Below are positions 1,811 through 9,362 of a stretch of 25,241 bases of DNA, one piece after another. Origin of the DNA: a virus; IMG/VR virus record IMGVR_UViG_3300020478_000058, positions 1 to 25,241 of that record, one strand, 5' to 3'. Both the position numbers and the translations under genes were made by a program. The notes under the pieces were generated by a model that did not search any database, was not told the origin of the DNA, and saw only the letters and a list, made by a program, of their open reading frames with translations. Position 1 is the stretch's first letter. Each line of letters begins with the position of its first letter.

Positions 1811-2443
1811 ATGGAAGAGTCATTAATTGAGCCTGGGCATTTCGGGGATTCCGTAGACAACATAATGATCTTTAGGGATTTTGTAGAACCTATCGATCTT
1901 GAAAACATGAACTCTTTCTTGCCCCACCTGAAAGAATGGGACAACCCACGAGAAACCGAGTATGACGAGAACGGCGTCTGTATTTATGATGCCTCTTACT
2001 GGTGGGATCGTGTATGCGAAGGGCAAACGATTAGAAGAGTTAACCCCTTTGTTTATGAATTGATCCAAAAATATATAGAAAAAATGAGGGTGGCGATTGA
2101 GCAGCACCACAAAGGTGTTCGTGTTGGCGGGAGAGACCCTGTTCTCGTTAGATGGCTCCCAGGGTTAGAACAGCAGCCACATGCAGATAAACAGTTGAAT
2201 GATGGCTCCCCTAACGCTTTCCCTACTTATGACATAAATTCAGTTATCTACTGGAATGATGCTTTCGAAGGCGGCCAATTTTATTATCCTCAGCATGAGA
2301 TCGAATTAGAGATAGAACCTGGGATGGCGGTTTGCCATCCAGGTGACATTAATTATTTGCATGGCGTAAAGCCGATCGAGTCTGGGGTTAGATGGACAAC
2401 CCCTTCGTTTTACACAATTCTAAGTTTAGAGGAGGAACAGTAA
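1811..2443 (+). CDS. 2OG-Fe(II) oxygenase, prolyl 4-hydroxylase-like (1)
   Basis: A 210-residue protein with the double-stranded beta-helix motifs of 2-oxoglutarate/Fe(II) dioxygenases. The iron site is H124-x-D126 (QPHADKQ) and H184 (NYLHGV). The 2OG-binding residue is R194 (ESGVRW). The strand between them, FEGGQFYYPQ, is typical of the prolyl 4-hydroxylase/2OG-FeII_Oxy_3 group. Such enzymes couple oxidative decarboxylation of 2OG to hydroxylation of a substrate, often a proline. It is the first oxygenase of the cluster, 27 nt after the (F/H)FPP protein. Its stop overlaps the next ATG (TAATG), so the two are translationally coupled. The start ATG at 1811 is preceded only by a G-run, not a classical ribosome site. 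The substrate is not shown by the sequence. Confidence 0.85.
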   Translation: MEESLIEPGHFGDSVDNIMIFRDFVEPIDLENMNSFLPHLKEWDNPRETEYDENGVCIYDASYWWDRVCEGQTIRRVNPFVYELIQKYIEKMRVAIEQHHKGVRVGGRDPVLVRWLPGLEQQPHADKQLNDGSPNAFPTYDINSVIYWNDAFEGGQFYYPQHEIELEIEPGMAVCHPGDINYLHGVKPIESGVRWTTPSFYTILSLEEEQ

Positions 2444-3189
2444 TGGAAATAGATTTTGATGTAGCAGGGTATGTAGGGCATCCTGGTGCTTGCATTCTTC
2501 TATATAAGAACGTGTGGGATAAAGATCAACAATTCCCTCAACGCTTAGAAGCATGTTTGGAAAACAGTGACCACGAGTATTACAAGTGGAGCACTGCGAC
2601 TGTGGGCGACATTGAAGAGATGAAGGATTACAGGGACTGTAAAGACTTTAAGATCGGCGGCACTTTCGGAGAAAAGTTGCCGTACTTCAACAACCTTGAC
2701 GAAGGTCCTTTTGCGGACTTAAAACAAGTTTATTTGGAAGTAATGGGCGGCATACATAAATGCGTTGAGCATTACAGTAAGACGTTCAATATCGGGGAGT
2801 TGGAGTATTTCGAAGCCCCTAATTTTGTCAGGTATGAAGAAGGGCAGTACTTTATGCCTCACCCTGATCATGGGTTCTCCTACACGTGCACTACTTCTGT
2901 TGTCGCTTTTCTCAACACTTGTGGGGAAGATTATGAAGGTGGGGAATTAGTTTGGAACTACCAAGACATTAAGTTCACGCCCGAAAAAAATGATGTTGTT
3001 GTGTTCCCGTCCAATTACCCATACGTCCATGAATCTAAACCCATTGAGAGTGGGCTGAAATACTCATGCGTTGTCATGTATGACTACAACGACCGAAACC
3101 ACAAGACAGATCCTGGCGCTCCACCTTCTCCCTCGAACGACGGGCAGATTGAACAAGGCAGTGGAGAAAGCCAATTACCTAGACTGTAA
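2443..3189 (+). CDS. 2OG-Fe(II) oxygenase, prolyl 4-hydroxylase-like (2)
   Basis: I start this gene at the ATG at 2443 (248 residues), because it overlaps the previous stop as TAATG and has a strong GAGGAGG ribosome site just before it; an in-frame upstream extension to 2392 has no such support. Iron ligands are H140-x-D142 (MPHPDHG) and H196 (YVHESK). The 2OG-binding position is Lys, K206 (SGLKYS), as in collagen prolyl 4-hydroxylases, not the Arg seen in the other two copies. The EGGELVWNYQDI and VVVFPSNY strands closely match the protein at 6850-7683, so these two are paralogues. The last ~30 residues are polar, rich in P, S and G, and probably disordered. It ends in another TAATG overlap. 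Confidence 0.87.
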   Translation: MEIDFDVAGYVGHPGACILLYKNVWDKDQQFPQRLEACLENSDHEYYKWSTATVGDIEEMKDYRDCKDFKIGGTFGEKLPYFNNLDEGPFADLKQVYLEVMGGIHKCVEHYSKTFNIGELEYFEAPNFVRYEEGQYFMPHPDHGFSYTCTTSVVAFLNTCGEDYEGGELVWNYQDIKFTPEKNDVVVFPSNYPYVHESKPIESGLKYSCVVMYDYNDRNHKTDPGAPPSPSNDGQIEQGSGESQLPRL

Positions 3190-3908
3190 TGAAGGTTCGG
3201 TTAACACGAGCACACGGGAACCCTCCAGTTCTCCAACAGTGCCGTCCACGGCGAGAGTGGATGGACGACACCACAAACAAACATGCTTATAAGTGCCTGC
3301 CGTTGACCGCCGCTAATGTTCACGGCTGGGAACTGCAACTCCAGCAAGATGTCGTTGTTCAATTAGATGAAGGCCCTGGGCGGATACCGAGGGTGTTGCG
3401 TGGGGAAAAATGTCTTTTTGAAGGAGAAGACAATTCTTATGAACGGCACATTGTCCAGCAAAGCATTATCAATACTGTTTCTTTCACAACAGGATGGTCA
3501 ATAAATCCACCCGATGGGTACAGCGTTTTGTTCACCGGCGCTCCCAATTATTTTATTGAAGGGGCAGCACCTATGACAGCCCTTGTCCCTGGTTGGTGGC
3601 CCGATGAAGTAAATATGAATTGGGTTATTACCAAGAAAAATACTCCTATAACTTTCCCTAAAGGTATGCCTTTTGCCTTTTTCCAAATCGTTGAAGACAG
3701 CCTTCTAAGCCAAGTCAAGTTCAACGTCTCTAATTCCTGGGATGACCTGGACCATGTGGAAACACGAATCAGTTACAACAATGCTAAATCCGAGAAGAAG
3801 TCAAAGGATCAGTGGAGTTGGATGAACGGTATCCGCACTGGGTTAAACGAAAAAGATGAACCTATCGGACCAAGGTTCGAGGGGCACCCAAGTTTGGATG
3901 AGCCATGA
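3189..3908 (+). CDS. DUF6065 family protein
   Basis: A 239-residue protein recognised as DUF6065. It has the opening phrase REWMDDTTNKHAYKCLPL followed by AANVHGWEL (residues ~23-49), a central TGWSINPPDGYSVLFTGAPN stretch, and a MNWVITKK...FPKGMPFAFFQIV stretch before a charged C-terminal tail. The biochemical role of the family is unknown to me. The mix of beta-strand phrases would suit a cupin-like fold, but that is inference. It starts at the ATG overlapping the upstream stop (TAATG) and ends in an ATGA overlap with the next TauD-like gene. It is therefore embedded in the oxygenase operon and probably acts on, or helps position, the same substrate. Confidence 0.75.
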   Translation: MKVRLTRAHGNPPVLQQCRPRREWMDDTTNKHAYKCLPLTAANVHGWELQLQQDVVVQLDEGPGRIPRVLRGEKCLFEGEDNSYERHIVQQSIINTVSFTTGWSINPPDGYSVLFTGAPNYFIEGAAPMTALVPGWWPDEVNMNWVITKKNTPITFPKGMPFAFFQIVEDSLLSQVKFNVSNSWDDLDHVETRISYNNAKSEKKSKDQWSWMNGIRTGLNEKDEPIGPRFEGHPSLDEP

Positions 3909-4846
3909 GAGTCAAAGAGTTCCACGTCTTAAAAGATGTTAACGATCTGCTTTTGTTTGCCACTAAGCAAAGGAAACTTTTCCATGAAGCAAAAGTTGTG
4001 GTTTATAGAAACAGTGGTTACAACCAAGACGAGTTGATGGTTCTTAGGGACGCTTATGGGTTTGGGACAGACAAAGATCTGTCAATTAATTATGAGGTCC
4101 ATTACTTGGACATTTATAACGGGATAGAGGATGGCCCACACGAATTTATAAACCCGTGGCACTTGGAATCCAACTACCTAGAACACCCACCTGTTTCAGG
4201 GATATGGGAAATGACCTCTTACGGTTCAGGAGGAGGTCAAGGGGGTTTTATCGATATGGGTAGATTGTATGAAAAATTACCCGATGATCTTAAAGACTAT
4301 GCAGAAAACACGTACACGGTTTCTTTGCCTAACTGGTTCCCCATCGATAGAGAACATTTTAGAGAAGTGGTTGGGACATCTAACCGTCCATTTCTTTACC
4401 CAGTGAATGACCCTGCCCCTGGCGGATTCCCAGGGCAACAATATGTCAATGTTTCCCCTCATCCCTTAGTGCAAGAACACCCTGTTACAGGACAGAAGGT
4501 GATTAGAACAATCACCGAATTACCTATTGGCGATTTTGGGCAACAACGGGAAATCTATTTAGACGACTCGGACATGAAGGACGAATTCACTGGTTGGCTT
4601 AATCAGGAACTATCAAACCCCGAGAATCACATGTGGCATGAATGGGGACATGGGGATGTGTTGCTAATTGATCTTTTTTCCGTCTGCCATTCTGTTAAAT
4701 GGCTCGAAGAAAAAGAAGATGAACCAAAGCGAGTCCTCCAAAACCATCTTTGGTTCGAACCTGGAGCCAAAACTTTTGACGATGACCCTCTAGGTTTAGA
4801 ATGGGTGTGGGAGATCGACTATTCAGATAAGAACTATATGACATGA
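3905..4846 (+). CDS. TauD-like 2OG-Fe(II) dioxygenase (1)
   Basis: A 313-residue protein of the TauD/TfdA-like group. The first iron motif is H86-x-E88 (NPWHLESNYLEHPP), an acidic variant of the usual WHxD. The second His is H262 (DLFSVCHSVKW), in the place of TauD's DNRxxxH. R276 (KRVLQNHLW) is the likely 2OG-binding Arg. A GGFIDMGRLYEKLPDDLK segment, shared by all three TauD-like proteins here, follows the first motif. These enzymes hydroxylate small molecules or peptide side chains; the substrate here is unknown. It begins inside the DUF6065 stop (ATGA) and ends with another ATGA overlap with its paralogue. Confidence 0.8.
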   Translation: MRVKEFHVLKDVNDLLLFATKQRKLFHEAKVVVYRNSGYNQDELMVLRDAYGFGTDKDLSINYEVHYLDIYNGIEDGPHEFINPWHLESNYLEHPPVSGIWEMTSYGSGGGQGGFIDMGRLYEKLPDDLKDYAENTYTVSLPNWFPIDREHFREVVGTSNRPFLYPVNDPAPGGFPGQQYVNVSPHPLVQEHPVTGQKVIRTITELPIGDFGQQREIYLDDSDMKDEFTGWLNQELSNPENHMWHEWGHGDVLLIDLFSVCHSVKWLEEKEDEPKRVLQNHLWFEPGAKTFDDDPLGLEWVWEIDYSDKNYMT

Positions 4847-5757
4847 GTGCTTTTATCACTGAGGAAACTTCCTCATTAGAAGAAATCTATGAAGACTCTG
4901 TGCGCTATGCCGATCTTTTAGTCGAACATAAAGGGATTGTTTTTAAGGATCTGTCGCCGCATTTCATGGAACAAATCCGCATTATGGAACTTCTTTATCA
5001 AGGTGATGACACTAACCCTAGAGAAGGAACAATCTTCGATGAAGACCACAGAATCCTTTATAAGGGTAACGAACTAAACGGGATACCGTTTGTTGATGGG
5101 ATGACCCCTGAAGGGTCTAAGCATAATTGGCATAGCGATTTTCCTTTTTCACCTGAACCCCCGTCTTTGACAAGTATGCACATGAAAAAATTTGATGTCC
5201 CAAAAGGCGCTGGGCGGACTTGGCTTTTAGATCTTGAAATGTTCTATCACCTGCTTCCTGATGACCTAAAAGAATGGTTGGAAGGCGATATTTATTTTGA
5301 CCACAGGACAGGGAATTACTCTGATCCAGCGGGACGAGATAACACTGGGAACCATAAAACAAACGACCCGACTGGTAATCATTTTGGTGAAGAAGCAGGG
5401 TCTTATCATCGGGCGTTAAGAACGCACCCTGTTAGCAAAAGAACAAGCGTCTTTTTTTCAGGGATTTCCATGACATTAGCAAATTTCGAAAATCCCAACA
5501 TCCCTTATACCCCGCAAGGTACGCCCGACGATTCTCAGTTTAAGAAGTTGTGGGAGTTCATGGTCTATGACGTAATGAAAGCCTTTGACCCTGATCACCC
5601 TTGCTTATATGTCAGGGAATGGGAAGAAGGTGACCTTTTTATTTGGGACAACAGGAACCTTATGCACACATTCGAAGGTGGATGGGCCTTAGGGAGTCGT
5701 ATTTTCGATAAAGTTGAGTATGGACATGAAAAGCCCTACTACGGCTCACCCAATTAG
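4843..5757 (+). CDS. TauD-like 2OG-Fe(II) dioxygenase (2)
   Basis: A 304-residue protein and the most complete TauD-like copy. It has H97-x-D99 (NWHSDFPF), the AGRTWLLDLEMFYHLLPDDLK segment at ~123-143, H275 in DNRNLMHTF, and R286 eleven residues later, the same spacing as H255/R266 in E. coli TauD. All catalytic residues are present, so it is predicted to be an active iron enzyme. It aligns without gaps over its key motifs with the degenerate copy at 5862-6884, so the pair arose by duplication. The start ATG overlaps the upstream stop (ATGA). A 104-nt gap, unusual for this tight cluster, separates it from the next gene. Confidence 0.85.
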   Translation: MSAFITEETSSLEEIYEDSVRYADLLVEHKGIVFKDLSPHFMEQIRIMELLYQGDDTNPREGTIFDEDHRILYKGNELNGIPFVDGMTPEGSKHNWHSDFPFSPEPPSLTSMHMKKFDVPKGAGRTWLLDLEMFYHLLPDDLKEWLEGDIYFDHRTGNYSDPAGRDNTGNHKTNDPTGNHFGEEAGSYHRALRTHPVSKRTSVFFSGISMTLANFENPNIPYTPQGTPDDSQFKKLWEFMVYDVMKAFDPDHPCLYVREWEEGDLFIWDNRNLMHTFEGGWALGSRIFDKVEYGHEKPYYGSPN

Positions 5758-5861
5758 GTGGCTGTTGACACAGGAGTTCGTGGATGGGATCGAGATGGGG
5801 CTTATGACTGTGCCTGCATGGGACCGGTCCATGCCTAGAACTTTGGAGTATTGGAGGACAC
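5758..5861 (+). promoter_or_regulatory. Intergenic gap with hairpin/inverted repeat and mini-ORF
   Basis: This is the only sizeable gap in the oxygenase cluster. It holds the near-perfect inverted repeat GCATGGGACCGGTCCATGC (5816-5834; one bulged G, CCGG centre), which could fold as an RNA hairpin or act as an operator. It ends 27 nt before the next start codon. A 26-codon GTG frame runs from 5758 to 5838 directly after the upstream stop, but has no recognisable product. A good ribosome site (GGAGG, 5853-5857) serves the gene at 5862. I see no rho-independent terminator (no T tract). Confidence 0.4.
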
Positions 5862-6884
5862 GTGGCCACCATCGTTGAATTAAAAAACGTAAAAAAAGAA
5901 GACATCCTTAGAGACCCTGCACAATTCAGTGAACAATTTTTCTCTAACGGTATTCTCGGGTTCCGAGGTTTGAACCTTGGACGATGGGATTTTGTGGAAG
6001 TCATTTGGGCTTTAGGGTTCAATGACGCACCCCCACATTTTTATGACAATCCTGGCGAAGCGACCCCAGAAGAACCTTACGACCACTCAATACAACCAAA
6101 CTGCTTAAGGATGGACGAAGACTTCAAGCCACGTTTTGAAAGCATGTGGAATGGAGTTGGCACTGGAGGCGAAGTCCCCGAAGCAGGTGATTTTTATTAT
6201 CCAGGGATTGACGAACCCACCAGACAAACATTCATGTTCTGGTATATGGACGACCTCCAGAAAGAACATCTACTGCGTGTTAAGTCAATCAACATGCACA
6301 CTTACACTGCTCCACCGACCACAGGTGGACTCGGTTTCGTGGATATGGCCCAGGCATACCTAGATTTACCCGATAAATGGAAAGAAGGATTGCAAGAAGC
6401 ACGCAAACTCGAAAAGCAAGTTGTGTGGTTACCAGAAGGGCAACTTCAATACCCTCATCTTGTTTTCCAAGATCATTGGTTCCTTGGCCACAAAATTCTT
6501 ATGACCCAAGGTTTTAATAGCGACTGCGAACCTCCTTTCCATTGGGATATGGGAACAGTCGGGTCTTTCACAGAAGAAGAAATTCAGGAAGTAAACGTCT
6601 GGACATTCAATTATCAATGCGACCCACGTAACCAACAGTGGTGGGATTGGGAGCAAGGGGACCTGCTTGTTTACGATGCCCAGCAACTAGCAGTTGCGTG
6701 GTCTGCGGGGTTTGGTTTAGGGGAACTGGTGTTCGATTCGCTGCACTATAACGGTGGGTACGAAGAAGATTTACGGGGGCACGCACCCTCAACAGGGCAC
6801 GACCCTCGTGAAGATTTTGCTCTTGATCCACCTTATGAAGTGAAACCCTATGTCGTCCCAGAGGGCCATGAATACCACGGGTAA
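5862..6884 (+). CDS. TauD-like protein with lost catalytic residues (pseudo-oxygenase)
   Basis: A 340-residue homologue of the preceding TauD-like protein. Ungapped alignment shows WHSD replaced by WYMD (H to Y128; D130 kept). DNRNLMHTF is replaced by DAQQLAVAW (H to V278), and the 2OG-binding Arg eleven residues on becomes L289. Both iron-binding histidines and the cosubstrate Arg are thus gone, while the frame is intact and the fold segments (GGLGFVDMAQAYLDLP, WEQGDLLVYD) remain. I predict a folded but non-catalytic protein, perhaps a partner or substrate-presenting subunit of the active enzymes. The alternative is early decay, but there is no frameshift or stop. The start is GTG at 5862, chosen for the GGAGG at 5853-5857. 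It overlaps the next gene. Confidence 0.8.
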   Translation: MATIVELKNVKKEDILRDPAQFSEQFFSNGILGFRGLNLGRWDFVEVIWALGFNDAPPHFYDNPGEATPEEPYDHSIQPNCLRMDEDFKPRFESMWNGVGTGGEVPEAGDFYYPGIDEPTRQTFMFWYMDDLQKEHLLRVKSINMHTYTAPPTTGGLGFVDMAQAYLDLPDKWKEGLQEARKLEKQVVWLPEGQLQYPHLVFQDHWFLGHKILMTQGFNSDCEPPFHWDMGTVGSFTEEEIQEVNVWTFNYQCDPRNQQWWDWEQGDLLVYDAQQLAVAWSAGFGLGELVFDSLHYNGGYEEDLRGHAPSTGHDPREDFALDPPYEVKPYVVPEGHEYHG

Positions 6885-7683
6885 ACATCTAGGTGGAGGG
6901 GTTGTTTTATATGAAGATGCCTTTGATGTTGATTGGGGAACCCTTTGTGAGTTCGCTGAAGAACAAGCGCAAGCCGAGTGGGAGTCAATGTACACCCCTG
7001 GCAAAGACCCGTTGACTGGAGAAGAAGGGTACATAAATAGAAATGGTTACTTCTTCCACGAAAAGGGCATTACTGAAATGCCTCGTCACTGTGCTTATCT
7101 GCATAGTGATCCTGGCCCTGACATAGTTCCTTTACTTCACGAACTGGAACATAAACGGGATCTTTGTGCGGCTGAGTACATGGACAGGTTCCCGATTTCT
7201 GCTGCCTCTGTGTGGTGGAAAATAAAAGGCCACTTCTTGGTTTACCCGACAGGTTCTTTTCTTGGGGCTCACGCAGATACAAGCACAGATTATAAATATG
7301 GGGTACCCCACCCAACACACCAAATTGCCACTCGGACTGTGATAAGCACACTCACTTTCTTTAACAACTCTGGCACTGATTTCACTGGCGGTGATCTGGT
7401 TTTCCCTTACCTTGATATTCGCCACCAACCCAAAGCAGGGGATCTGTTGATTTTCCCATCAAATTACATGGGAGCGCATGAGTGTGAAACCGTCACTAGC
7501 GGGACACGGTTTAGCCATGTCGGCTGGTATTGCCAAGGTTCACCTGATATGAGATTCGAAATAGATGTAACAGACCCATTAGAAGACCCTGAACGTGCGG
7601 CAACAGCCACAAATGTGTATTTAACAGAACCTTTAGGTGTCGCTATGGAACAAGCCTGGGCGGGTAAAACTCGGGCTAACTAG
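6850..7683 (+). CDS. 2OG-Fe(II) oxygenase, prolyl 4-hydroxylase-like (3)
   Basis: A 277-residue prolyl-4-hydroxylase-like enzyme. Iron ligands are H141-x-D143 (GAHADTST) and H210 (GAHECE). R220 (SGTRFSH) binds 2OG. The FTGGDLVFPYLDI...LLIFPSNY region closely matches the enzyme at 2443-3189, so they are paralogues, but this one uses Arg rather than Lys for 2OG. The start is uncertain: ATG 6850 gives a 35-nt overlap with the previous gene, and ATG 6868 gives 17 nt; neither has a strong ribosome site. The gene ends 8 nt inside the 3' end of the opposite-strand methyltransferase gene and closes the oxygenase cluster. Confidence 0.85.
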   Translation: MSSQRAMNTTGKHLGGGVVLYEDAFDVDWGTLCEFAEEQAQAEWESMYTPGKDPLTGEEGYINRNGYFFHEKGITEMPRHCAYLHSDPGPDIVPLLHELEHKRDLCAAEYMDRFPISAASVWWKIKGHFLVYPTGSFLGAHADTSTDYKYGVPHPTHQIATRTVISTLTFFNNSGTDFTGGDLVFPYLDIRHQPKAGDLLIFPSNYMGAHECETVTSGTRFSHVGWYCQGSPDMRFEIDVTDPLEDPERAATATNVYLTEPLGVAMEQAWAGKTRAN

Positions 7684-8440
7684 CGTGTCTGGTTATTACA
7701 GTGAACCCTGTGTCTAGAGGAAAGTGGATTACGTCTAGGTCATCACGCTTAAGGAACGCCATGTTTGGTTCGTAATGTTCGTGGTGAAGCATTGTCCTCT
7801 TCAGGTACATGCCTTTATACGCACCAGAGTTCACAACAACCATCCTGCCTCCTGGCTTAAGAAGGTTGATGTAGGCATCGCTTAGGTTTTCGTCAACACC
7901 TAACACGTGAGCCATGTGCACTTCAACAAAGTCGTAAGTGCCTGCCCCTTCCCCAGAAAGCACGTCTTCGTGGTCCATAACTGAATACCGAGGGGTGTAA
8001 GAACTTACCTCTGCACTTGTTGGCCACCAGTCTTCAAACACTGCAAAGTCCAAGCCATTTAGAAATGTGACGTCTTTACCGTTGGCTTGGTCAACAAGTT
8101 TCATTGTGAAATGGGACCCTTCAGGGACAGCCATAAACACTTTGGTTGGGTTTGCCAAATCGAACATAAGGTGGCGGAATTCTGCACTTGTCCAAAGATA
8201 TGACTCCCATTCAGGGTGCATGTCTTTAAGGATCTCGTACATCATAAAGTAAGGATCGTGACCGCCTGCGATAGCCCTATTGTCAGGGTTCTTTGCTTTC
8301 ACATAGTCGGAAGCGTGGTTATAAAAGTCTTGTCTCACACCAGACATAAGTTTGTCCATGTCCGACAAACTTGTTTTAGTGAGAGCAAGGGCGACTACGT
8401 TTTTACGGAATAAATCTGTTACTGCAAATTGCACAGCCAT
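7676..8440 (-). CDS. Probable SAM-dependent methyltransferase
   Basis: A 254-residue protein with class I methyltransferase traits in its second half. KVFMAVPEGSHFTMKLVDQ lies at the usual first-motif position, though it lacks a clean GxGxG. TYDFVEVHMAHVLG resembles the acidic strand. YINLLKPGGRMVVVNSG is the classic post-motif loop and strand. The N-terminal ~90 residues are a helical cap. The substrate is unknown. It is the last gene of a five-gene minus-strand operon; its ATG overlaps the upstream stop (TAATG) and an AAGGGAG ribosome site precedes it. Its end overlaps the oxygenase gene on the other strand by 8 nt. Being beside a protein-modification cluster, it could modify the same target, but its separate transcription argues for caution. 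Confidence 0.6.
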   Translation of the reverse strand: MAVQFAVTDLFRKNVVALALTKTSLSDMDKLMSGVRQDFYNHASDYVKAKNPDNRAIAGGHDPYFMMYEILKDMHPEWESYLWTSAEFRHLMFDLANPTKVFMAVPEGSHFTMKLVDQANGKDVTFLNGLDFAVFEDWWPTSAEVSSYTPRYSVMDHEDVLSGEGAGTYDFVEVHMAHVLGVDENLSDAYINLLKPGGRMVVVNSGAYKGMYLKRTMLHHEHYEPNMAFLKRDDLDVIHFPLDTGFTVITRHAS

Positions 8441-8808
8441 TACATCGCTCCCTTAGCAAGGTGACGCCAGTGGAATGCACGGCGAACATGTTCTTCTAAT
8501 CTTGTTTTCGTTGCGTTCATCCACGACTCAGCGGCATGAAGGTAGTTGCGCCCATCCCCATGTTCAGCGGAGACGCTGGCGGTTACTTTGTTCCCTTGCA
8601 TAAGTGGTTTTACGTCCGACTTAAGAGTTGTGTATGGGAAAAAGTCACGGCTTTCTGTGATTATTTCATCAATCGTGACTGTATCTATAGTGTTTAAGTC
8701 CATTCCCAGTATCGCCATAATCACGGCAATTTCTTGTTCTTGGTGCTCTGCATCTTTTGCGGCGCTGTAAATAGATCCTTCACTTCCTGTAAAACTGCGA
8801 ATTGTCAT
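8440..8808 (-). CDS. Hypothetical protein, minus-strand operon gene 4
   Basis: A 122-residue protein I do not recognise. It is mostly hydrophilic and helical, with a central VTIDEIITESRDFFPYT segment and a basic C-terminal helix (residues ~95-118, rich in R, H and K). There is no membrane segment or signal peptide. It is translationally coupled on both sides: its ATG lies in the stop of the 185-residue gene (ATGA), and its stop overlaps the methyltransferase start (TAATG). These overlaps are the main evidence that it is real. A function cannot be assigned. Confidence 0.65.
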   Translation of the reverse strand: MTIRSFTGSEGSIYSAAKDAEHQEQEIAVIMAILGMDLNTIDTVTIDEIITESRDFFPYTTLKSDVKPLMQGNKVTASVSAEHGDGRNYLHAAESWMNATKTRLEEHVRRAFHWRHLAKGAM

Positions 8809-9362
8809 GTGAAAAGGTCACTTTCTATACTTCCTGATTGGTTCCATGGGGCTCCCATACCAACAGGGTTAACAAACTTGCAATTCTCTACCCAGCGACC
8901 CTCAACACTTTCCGTGCAAATCAGATCACCGTTCCAACGAACAATGTCATCATCGTGGGCTTCACTGTCCCACTTCTTGTCACTGTGTTTAGAAGCACCA
9001 AATGTTTCAGGCACATGGACTGCTCGTCCTGCTGCTTTTGCACGTGCTTCAATCATTGGGTCCGTAACTGATTTATCTGTCACACCTTGTGAATTGTCCC
9101 AATAGTTTGCCGAGAGCACTTCTGCGCCTAAATCTAACACCGCATCAATTTCTTCCTGCGGGCCTTGGGGCATTCCTACTATTGGGCCTTTTAGAAGCGA
9201 CGGCACGTTCCCTTTATTGGCCTCTAAGTTTCCTTCTATATAGACATGCCCGCCCTCGCCTTGTTTTGGTCTAGCGGGAGCATCCCCGTGGATAAAGCCT
9301 TTTCGTTCAGCGGCAAGTTTGGGGACTGAAGGTAAGGGCTTGTCCTTATATTCAAAGTCCAT
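8805..9362 (-). CDS. Hypothetical protein, minus-strand operon gene 3
   Basis: A 185-residue acidic, hydrophilic protein with no family I recognise. The first ~55 residues are proline- and glycine-rich and probably extended (DKPLPSVPKLAAERK, then APARPKQGEGGHVYIEGN). The middle, EEIDAVLDLGAEVLSANYWD, is probably helical, and the rest has many D, W and N residues. It has an excellent ribosome site (TAGGAGG) nine bases before its ATG. It follows the 68-residue gene by 9 nt and ends in an ATGA overlap with the next gene. It could be a small structural or accessory protein, but nothing decides this. Confidence 0.65.
   Translation of the reverse strand: MDFEYKDKPLPSVPKLAAERKGFIHGDAPARPKQGEGGHVYIEGNLEANKGNVPSLLKGPIVGMPQGPQEEIDAVLDLGAEVLSANYWDNSQGVTDKSVTDPMIEARAKAAGRAVHVPETFGASKHSDKKWDSEAHDDDIVRWNGDLICTESVEGRWVENCKFVNPVGMGAPWNQSGSIESDLFT

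Follow-up and report, generated by a model that had tools for sequence, protein, structure and literature searches.

The threonine and arginine of TauD-type enzymes hold 2-oxoglutarate (2OG), and in 2OG halogenases such as SyrB2 the facial triad is altered, the acid being replaced by Ala or Gly while both His are kept. For TauD itself the iron ligands are given as His99, Asp101 and His255 (PMC9304159). The second DSBH domain of OGFOD1/Tpa1p is described as non-catalytic and metal-free, with substrate or partner binding suggested as its role (PMC4396695), and JARID2 is presented as an inactive JmjC protein with a regulatory role in the 2OG oxygenase family (PMC11241480). Among viruses, cyanophage S-SCSM1 is reported to carry 24 2OG-Fe(II) oxygenases, the families pfam13640, 13661, 13759 and 05721 being named, and the same account states that the functions of viral 2OG oxygenases have not been specifically investigated (PMC9602691). 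No viral 2OG pseudo-oxygenase was found in our search of the literature outside subscription papers.

The window that we analysed, 25,241 bases from an uncultured virus record in IMG/VR, contains a gene for a TauD-fold protein, TauC (5862-6884, on the plus strand like every window feature given below unless stated otherwise; assigned by ORF, Pfam and model). Its reading frame begins with GTG, is open over its full length of 340 aa and is preceded by a GGAGG at 5853-5857, the likely ribosome-binding site. Upstream lie two TauD paralogues, assigned by Pfam and residue table: TauA (3905-4846), with HxE, His and Arg intact, and TauB (4843-5757), with HxD, Thr, His and Arg intact. We propose that TauC is a pseudo-oxygenase kept for a non-catalytic task, with TauA catalysing, in an oxygenase cassette, and we put the probability of this explanation as a whole at roughly 0.7; that TauC has a selected non-catalytic role of some kind is very probable. 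The gene run to which TauC belongs adjoins what we read as apparent tail genes.

TauC scored 25.5 bits against the Pfam TauD profile (E 1.4e-5), just below the 27-bit cut-off, with TauA scoring 55.6 and TauB 65.9 bits. An AlphaFold2 model, made with an alignment of ten TauC rows (A4; seven degenerate and three intact) as input, was of middling confidence overall (mean pLDDT 64.7, pTM 0.70; pLDDT below 50 at residues 100-135 and 301-340). With this model Foldseek returned 170 chains at E <=0.001, a structural aligner gave Z 18.2 to AAD-1 and 18.0 to TauD over ~238 residues, and the best matches in a viral structure library were TauD-like proteins of uncultured Caudovirales phages. The modelled fold and the detectable sequence relation place TauC in TauD/TfdA (PF02668) as a fold family, and the first-pass annotation of this DNA was right that the fold segments and a full-length frame are kept.

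The catalytic positions were placed by aligning a profile of the ten A4 rows to AtsK (1oih) and counting along the alignment; residue tables drawn up row by row agree with this placement. Four of the five are replaced in TauC: Tyr128 (codon 6243-6245) stands where AtsK has its first iron His (His108), Leu157 (6330-6332) where it has the 2OG-binding Thr (Thr135), Val278 (6693-6695) where it has the second iron His (His264) and Leu289 (6726-6728) where it has the 2OG-binding Arg (Arg275), leaving Asp130 (6249-6251; AtsK Asp110) as the sole retained iron ligand. The changes from WHSD to WYMD, from DNRNLMHTF to DAQQLAVAW and from Arg to Leu eleven residues on, which the first-pass annotation had read from a comparison with TauB, are all present in the TauC sequence; its statement that every catalytic residue but one is lost also holds, the 2OG-binding Thr (now Leu157) being one loss beyond its list. 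In place of the HxD/E...H iron triad, the window has Y-x-D...V and its relatives Y/N-x-D...V/I/T. The Arg place is Leu and the Thr place Leu, Ile or Met in 7/7 degenerate A4 rows, and every row has an acidic ligand, Asp or Glu. Since both 2OG-binding places are hydrophobic in all degenerate rows, 2OG chemistry is unlikely and, judged from these residues, TauC very probably performs no canonical 2OG chemistry; it would be unable to hold iron or 2OG in the standard way, and it probably lacks catalysis altogether. TauC is an enzyme homologue that has lost its catalytic residues and is kept by selection (omega 0.012-0.035), as is characteristic of a pseudo-enzyme. A halogenase-like change was also considered, and was rejected because the acid is kept and both His are lost.

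It is unlikely that TauC is still an enzyme, acting on the same substrate through another metal site (for example Asp130, His199, His205 and Asp272) or by a metal-free reaction. His199, His205, Asp262 and Asp272 do not vary among the degenerate TauC rows, the last three being newly invariant in the degenerate clade, and this would suit such an enzyme, as would the acid retained in all rows and the very strong constraint on the gene (see below), which is of the kind that enzymes have; the hydrophobic Thr and Arg places speak against it, however, and His199 and His205 fall, in the alignment, outside the HxD and second-His motifs.

The degenerate state of TauC is common to 9/9 contigs with the closest relatives, the window included. 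An IMG/VR scan with TauC gave eight contigs (L001-L008), three of them 97-99%, one 53% and four 39-40% identical, and an IMG/VR alignment query recovered the same eight; in 8/8 the first His is replaced by Tyr or Asn, the second by Val, Ile or Thr, and the Arg by Leu. Intact close homologues, which the first-pass annotation had named as a sign of simple decay, were absent from this set. The state is an old one, maintained across lineages that are 44-60% identical, and the frame is open in every complete copy. Beyond IMG/VR, tblastn of TauC against 50,697 phage records gave no match, two scans of genome_contigs gave no relative, and a phmmer search of solved structures with an intact orthologue (that of contig L084) gave none at E <=1. 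A wider contig set, collected through the neighbouring gene O1, comprised 48 loci; loci of one contig were fetched repeatedly (e.g. L001/L011/L073), and the counts given here are of distinct contigs, with one exception noted below.

In contig L032, TauC keeps WHMEE at the first His, with the second His replaced by Val, the Arg by Leu and the Thr by Met, before running off the contig end past the Arg site. All catalytic residues are kept in the TauC orthologues of six contigs (L034-L038 and L084, the last from a later scan; L035 gave TauC scores identical to those of L034 and its sequence was read as L085), and they are likewise intact in the L050 row. In a tree of 35 TauD-type rows, TauC formed one clade (100/99), with intact (99/94) and degenerate (100/98) parts, and removing the columns at or next to the five catalytic sites left this arrangement in place (TauC 100/99, degenerate 98/95, intact 100/97). 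The cassette TauA proteins form a separate clade (100/99), so TauC was not copied recently from TauA. The branch to L032 is long, and the tree does not settle the position of L032 inside the degenerate part. With the L050 row intact, the count of changes comes to one. The simplest reading of these sequences would be one loss of the Thr, the second His and the Arg, the first His being lost afterwards; and because the more distant orthologues that occupy this operon slot have kept their catalytic residues, the loss arose within the phage cassette. The proposal of the first-pass annotation that TauC is a selected pseudo-enzyme is borne out in that the changes are kept across divergent lineages under strong constraint, but it needs the qualification that distant orthologues in the same slot, in six contigs, are intact.

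The same columns are changed in eight further IMG/VR contigs and, in part, in L032, so the TauC changes are due neither to chance nor to sequencing error. An assembly or annotation artefact, which the origin of the window in a 25,241-base record of an uncultured virus might invite, is scarcely credible when nine further IMG/VR contigs have the same or a partial loss and when a GGAGG precedes the start of a full frame; we reject it because the loss is found in independent contigs.

Selection on TauC was estimated as dN/dS by NG86, with our own script and on close pairs only. Between the window and L011, TauC shows 55 synonymous against 3 nonsynonymous differences (omega 0.012), and between the window and L012 and L013 it shows 63 synonymous against 10 nonsynonymous (omega 0.035), values far from the ratio near 1 that the first-pass annotation had associated with decay. 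In the same comparisons omega was 0.16-0.21 for TauA, 0.15-0.17 for TauB, ~0.03 for O1, ~0.055 for O2 and 0.02 for O3 (L012 only), and among L015, L017 and L018 it was 0.09-0.18 for TauC and 0.27-0.32 for TauA. For the L011 pair, TauC differs from TauA with a Fisher p of 0.0001 and from TauB with p 0.00002, and its 3/58 nonsynonymous differences compare with ~77% expected without selection (the share of sites being assumed; p ~1e-31). Purifying selection is tighter on TauC than on both of its intact-triad TauD neighbours. That TauC might be a dying copy whose frame is not yet broken could be argued from the loss of 4/5 catalytic residues and from the existence of intact orthologues elsewhere, but the low omega, the 3/58 nonsynonymous differences, the open frames and the persistence of the state across divergent lineages make decay extremely improbable, and we reject it on omega values of 0.012-0.035.

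The constraint on TauC also appears to have a new pattern. The seven degenerate rows of A4 share 30 invariant columns whose residues the three intact rows lack (a raw count). They include Phe126, Met129, Tyr271-Asp272-Ala273, Leu276, Trp280 and Glu288, many of them adjoining the former active site, and also a TGG/YP segment before the former HxD which is missing from the intact rows and of which residues 101-115 (TGG..YPG; 6162-6206) are part. The gain of a new binding function would explain these columns better than a loss of function. In addition, the C-terminal tail (VVPEGHEYHG in the window, 6852-6881) hardly varies among lineages that have lost the first His, PEGH(E/S)YH showing full or almost full identity across the six A4 rows concerned; overlap with the O3 frame may contribute to this conservation.

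The neighbourhood of TauC was compared between ten contigs with a degenerate TauC (the window, L011-L018 and L032) and six with an intact one (for these counts L080, L085, L036, L081, L082 and L084). In the stretches examined, TauA accompanies 10/10 degenerate and 0/6 intact TauC genes. A gene that we call X shows the reverse pattern (0/10 and 6/6): it encodes ~213 aa (with RH.G..WHYPDW in L084, where it is a separate gene at 8367-9008 before the intact TauC) and lies between the DUF6065 gene and TauC in all six intact contigs. X is also found fused behind a TauD domain, for example in L050, L052, L055, L062, L063, L086, L089 and L092, as the C-terminal half of long ORFs. It gave no Pfam family at E <=1 and was not detected among the cassette proteins of the window (best E 0.37). 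On this distribution X would appear to go with active TauD units, and it is missing where TauC has lost its active site. TauC lies directly upstream of O3 in degenerate and intact contigs alike, except in L032, which ends before O3, and in L015-L018, where two extra 2OG-FeII_Oxy_3-like genes (11300-13013 in L015) stand between the degenerate TauC and O3.

TauB, which the first-pass annotation had put forward for modelling as a partner of TauC, occurs in only 4/10 degenerate-TauC contigs, namely the window and its close relatives L011-L013; it is missing from the other six, and we rejected it as an obligate partner. TauA may be the partner, although we hold this tentatively and with the odds somewhat against it. 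The ten degenerate contigs represent about four lineages (the window group of four, L014, L015-L018 and L032), so the association of TauA with degenerate TauC may be a single historical event, and is to be read as a pattern rather than a test. Moreover, the TauA of the window group has Gly for the 2OG-binding Thr, unlike the TauA of L014, L015, L017 and L032, and this weakens the idea of TauA as a fully competent enzyme.

The TauC fold could instead have been kept to serve in virion structure or to bind a host protein, in a role unrelated to the oxygenases. The apparent tail genes beside the gene run (by our own reading) and the 30 new invariant columns, which would suit a new binding surface, are in keeping with this; but TauC sits in the cassette, occupies the slot that its intact orthologues fill and, where it is degenerate, is always accompanied by TauA, and we consider such a role improbable. 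This structural or host-binding role outside the cassette and the enzyme with another metal site are the most serious remaining rivals to our reading of TauC as a non-catalytic member of the cassette.

Other members of the cassette in the window are O1 (1811-2443), a 2OG oxygenase by a weak Oxy_3 profile match, O2 (2392-3189) and O3 (6868-7683, its ORF being listed from 6850), both 2OG-FeII_Oxy_3 by Pfam, and a DUF6065 protein (3189-3908; Pfam and predicted fold). O1, O2, DUF6065 and O3 co-occur widely across contigs, and we observed DUF6065 to be a very constant member. The DUF6065 model has a pLDDT of 92.4 and a moderate likeness to dUTPase (best Z 11.6, rmsd 5.3, 121 residues), from which we draw no function. 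In the phage records DUF6065 had no match and O1 only four weak ones, and a search of the literature outside subscription papers found no paper naming DUF6065. After the cassette come three genes on the minus strand (7676-9362; 254, 122 and 185 aa). The 254-aa gene (7676-8440) recurs in many related contigs and, to our eye, has the look of a methyltransferase end; it gave no Pfam family at E <=1.

The cassette is accompanied by a repeat protein (1304-1783; ORF and repeat scan) that ends in (FPPx)n, with x mostly F, H or Y, and that is (FPP[FH])n in the window. FPP repeats are present in 38/48 O1 contigs, the other ten having short flanks on the relevant side, and a reversed-sequence control still gave an FPP run in 3/48. 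A scan for FPP gave at least 79 new loci, of which three without an FPP ORF by our rule were dropped to leave 76, both counts possibly including near-identical contigs. Among the matches listed, 50/76 FPP stretches had an oxygenase profile hit and 26/76 had none, with DUF6065 in 34/76; among those of at least 8 kb the figures were 32/43, 11/43 and 25/43, all of these being raw counts from FPP stretches alone. In these proteins the array is long and C-terminal, (FPP[FHYW])n, behind a variable N-terminal part, and their genes nearly always lie close to those for O1, O2 and DUF6065 in uncultured phages; in L043 a chaperone-like end follows, as we read it. The N-terminal part in the window is faintly PASTA-like (E 0.19, far below the cut-off), and in L066 the repeat follows fn3 domains.

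The Oxy_3 class of oxygenases includes prolyl hydroxylases. That a protein made up of Pro, Phe, His and Tyr is encoded next to Oxy_3 oxygenases suggests the repeat as a substrate, and it is possible, at somewhat less than even odds, that the FPP protein is the substrate of the cassette. Searches of the literature outside subscription papers found neither the string FPPFFPP or a pairing of FPP with oxygenases, nor any account of tail repeats as targets of phage oxygenases.

We suggest the following course of events. The ancestor of TauC, in the same operon slot, would have been an ordinary HxE...H...R enzyme, which may first have lost the second His together with the Thr and Arg that bind 2OG, giving the state seen in L032, and only afterwards the first His. 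This lineage lacks the neighbouring X gene and has a TauA with an intact triad; TauA would supply the catalysis, perhaps in a complex in which TauC stays on as a structural, substrate-holding or regulatory subunit. The cassette as a whole probably modifies a phage product, for which the (FPPx)n repeat protein is the best candidate. The fullest version of this scheme, in which uncultured phages carry a dedicated system of several 2OG oxygenases and DUF6065 that modifies a virion-associated (FPPx)n protein, and in which one oxygenase turned stepwise non-catalytic as TauA took over, L032 being the intermediate, is a speculation that we regard as doubtful.

Compared with described members of TauD/TfdA (TauD, AtsK and AAD-1), TauC is alike in fold and in its sequence relation (Z 18, ~238 residues) but differs in having lost both iron His and the Thr and Arg for 2OG, with only the acid left. 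SyrB2-type halogenases also have an altered facial triad, but they lose the acid and keep the His, and TauC does the reverse. Like cyanophages of the S-SCSM1 type, the window carries many oxygenases without an assigned task in a single genome; the sections of the S-SCSM1 account cited here mention no TauD, FPP repeat or pseudo-oxygenase (PMC9602691), and the co-occurrence of the cassette with FPP may offer a concrete candidate protein substrate for phage oxygenases with unknown targets. The likeness to OGFOD1/Tpa1p, as described in the source cited above, is that of an oxygenase-fold unit without a metal site next to a catalytic unit, although that unit is part of the catalytic chain itself and falls in another 2OG subfamily, and TauC is a separate viral gene. 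JARID2, from what its cited source gives, is likewise an inactive family member, but it is eukaryotic, multidomain and of another 2OG subfamily. Pseudo-enzymes with the 2OG-oxygenase fold are already known in eukaryotes; the papers searched described no TauD-type one from phages that has both intact and intermediate orthologues in its slot, and the occurrence of enzyme, half-lost intermediate and pseudo-enzyme in one slot of related viruses makes it possible to test in which order the residues were lost and whether a partner was gained.
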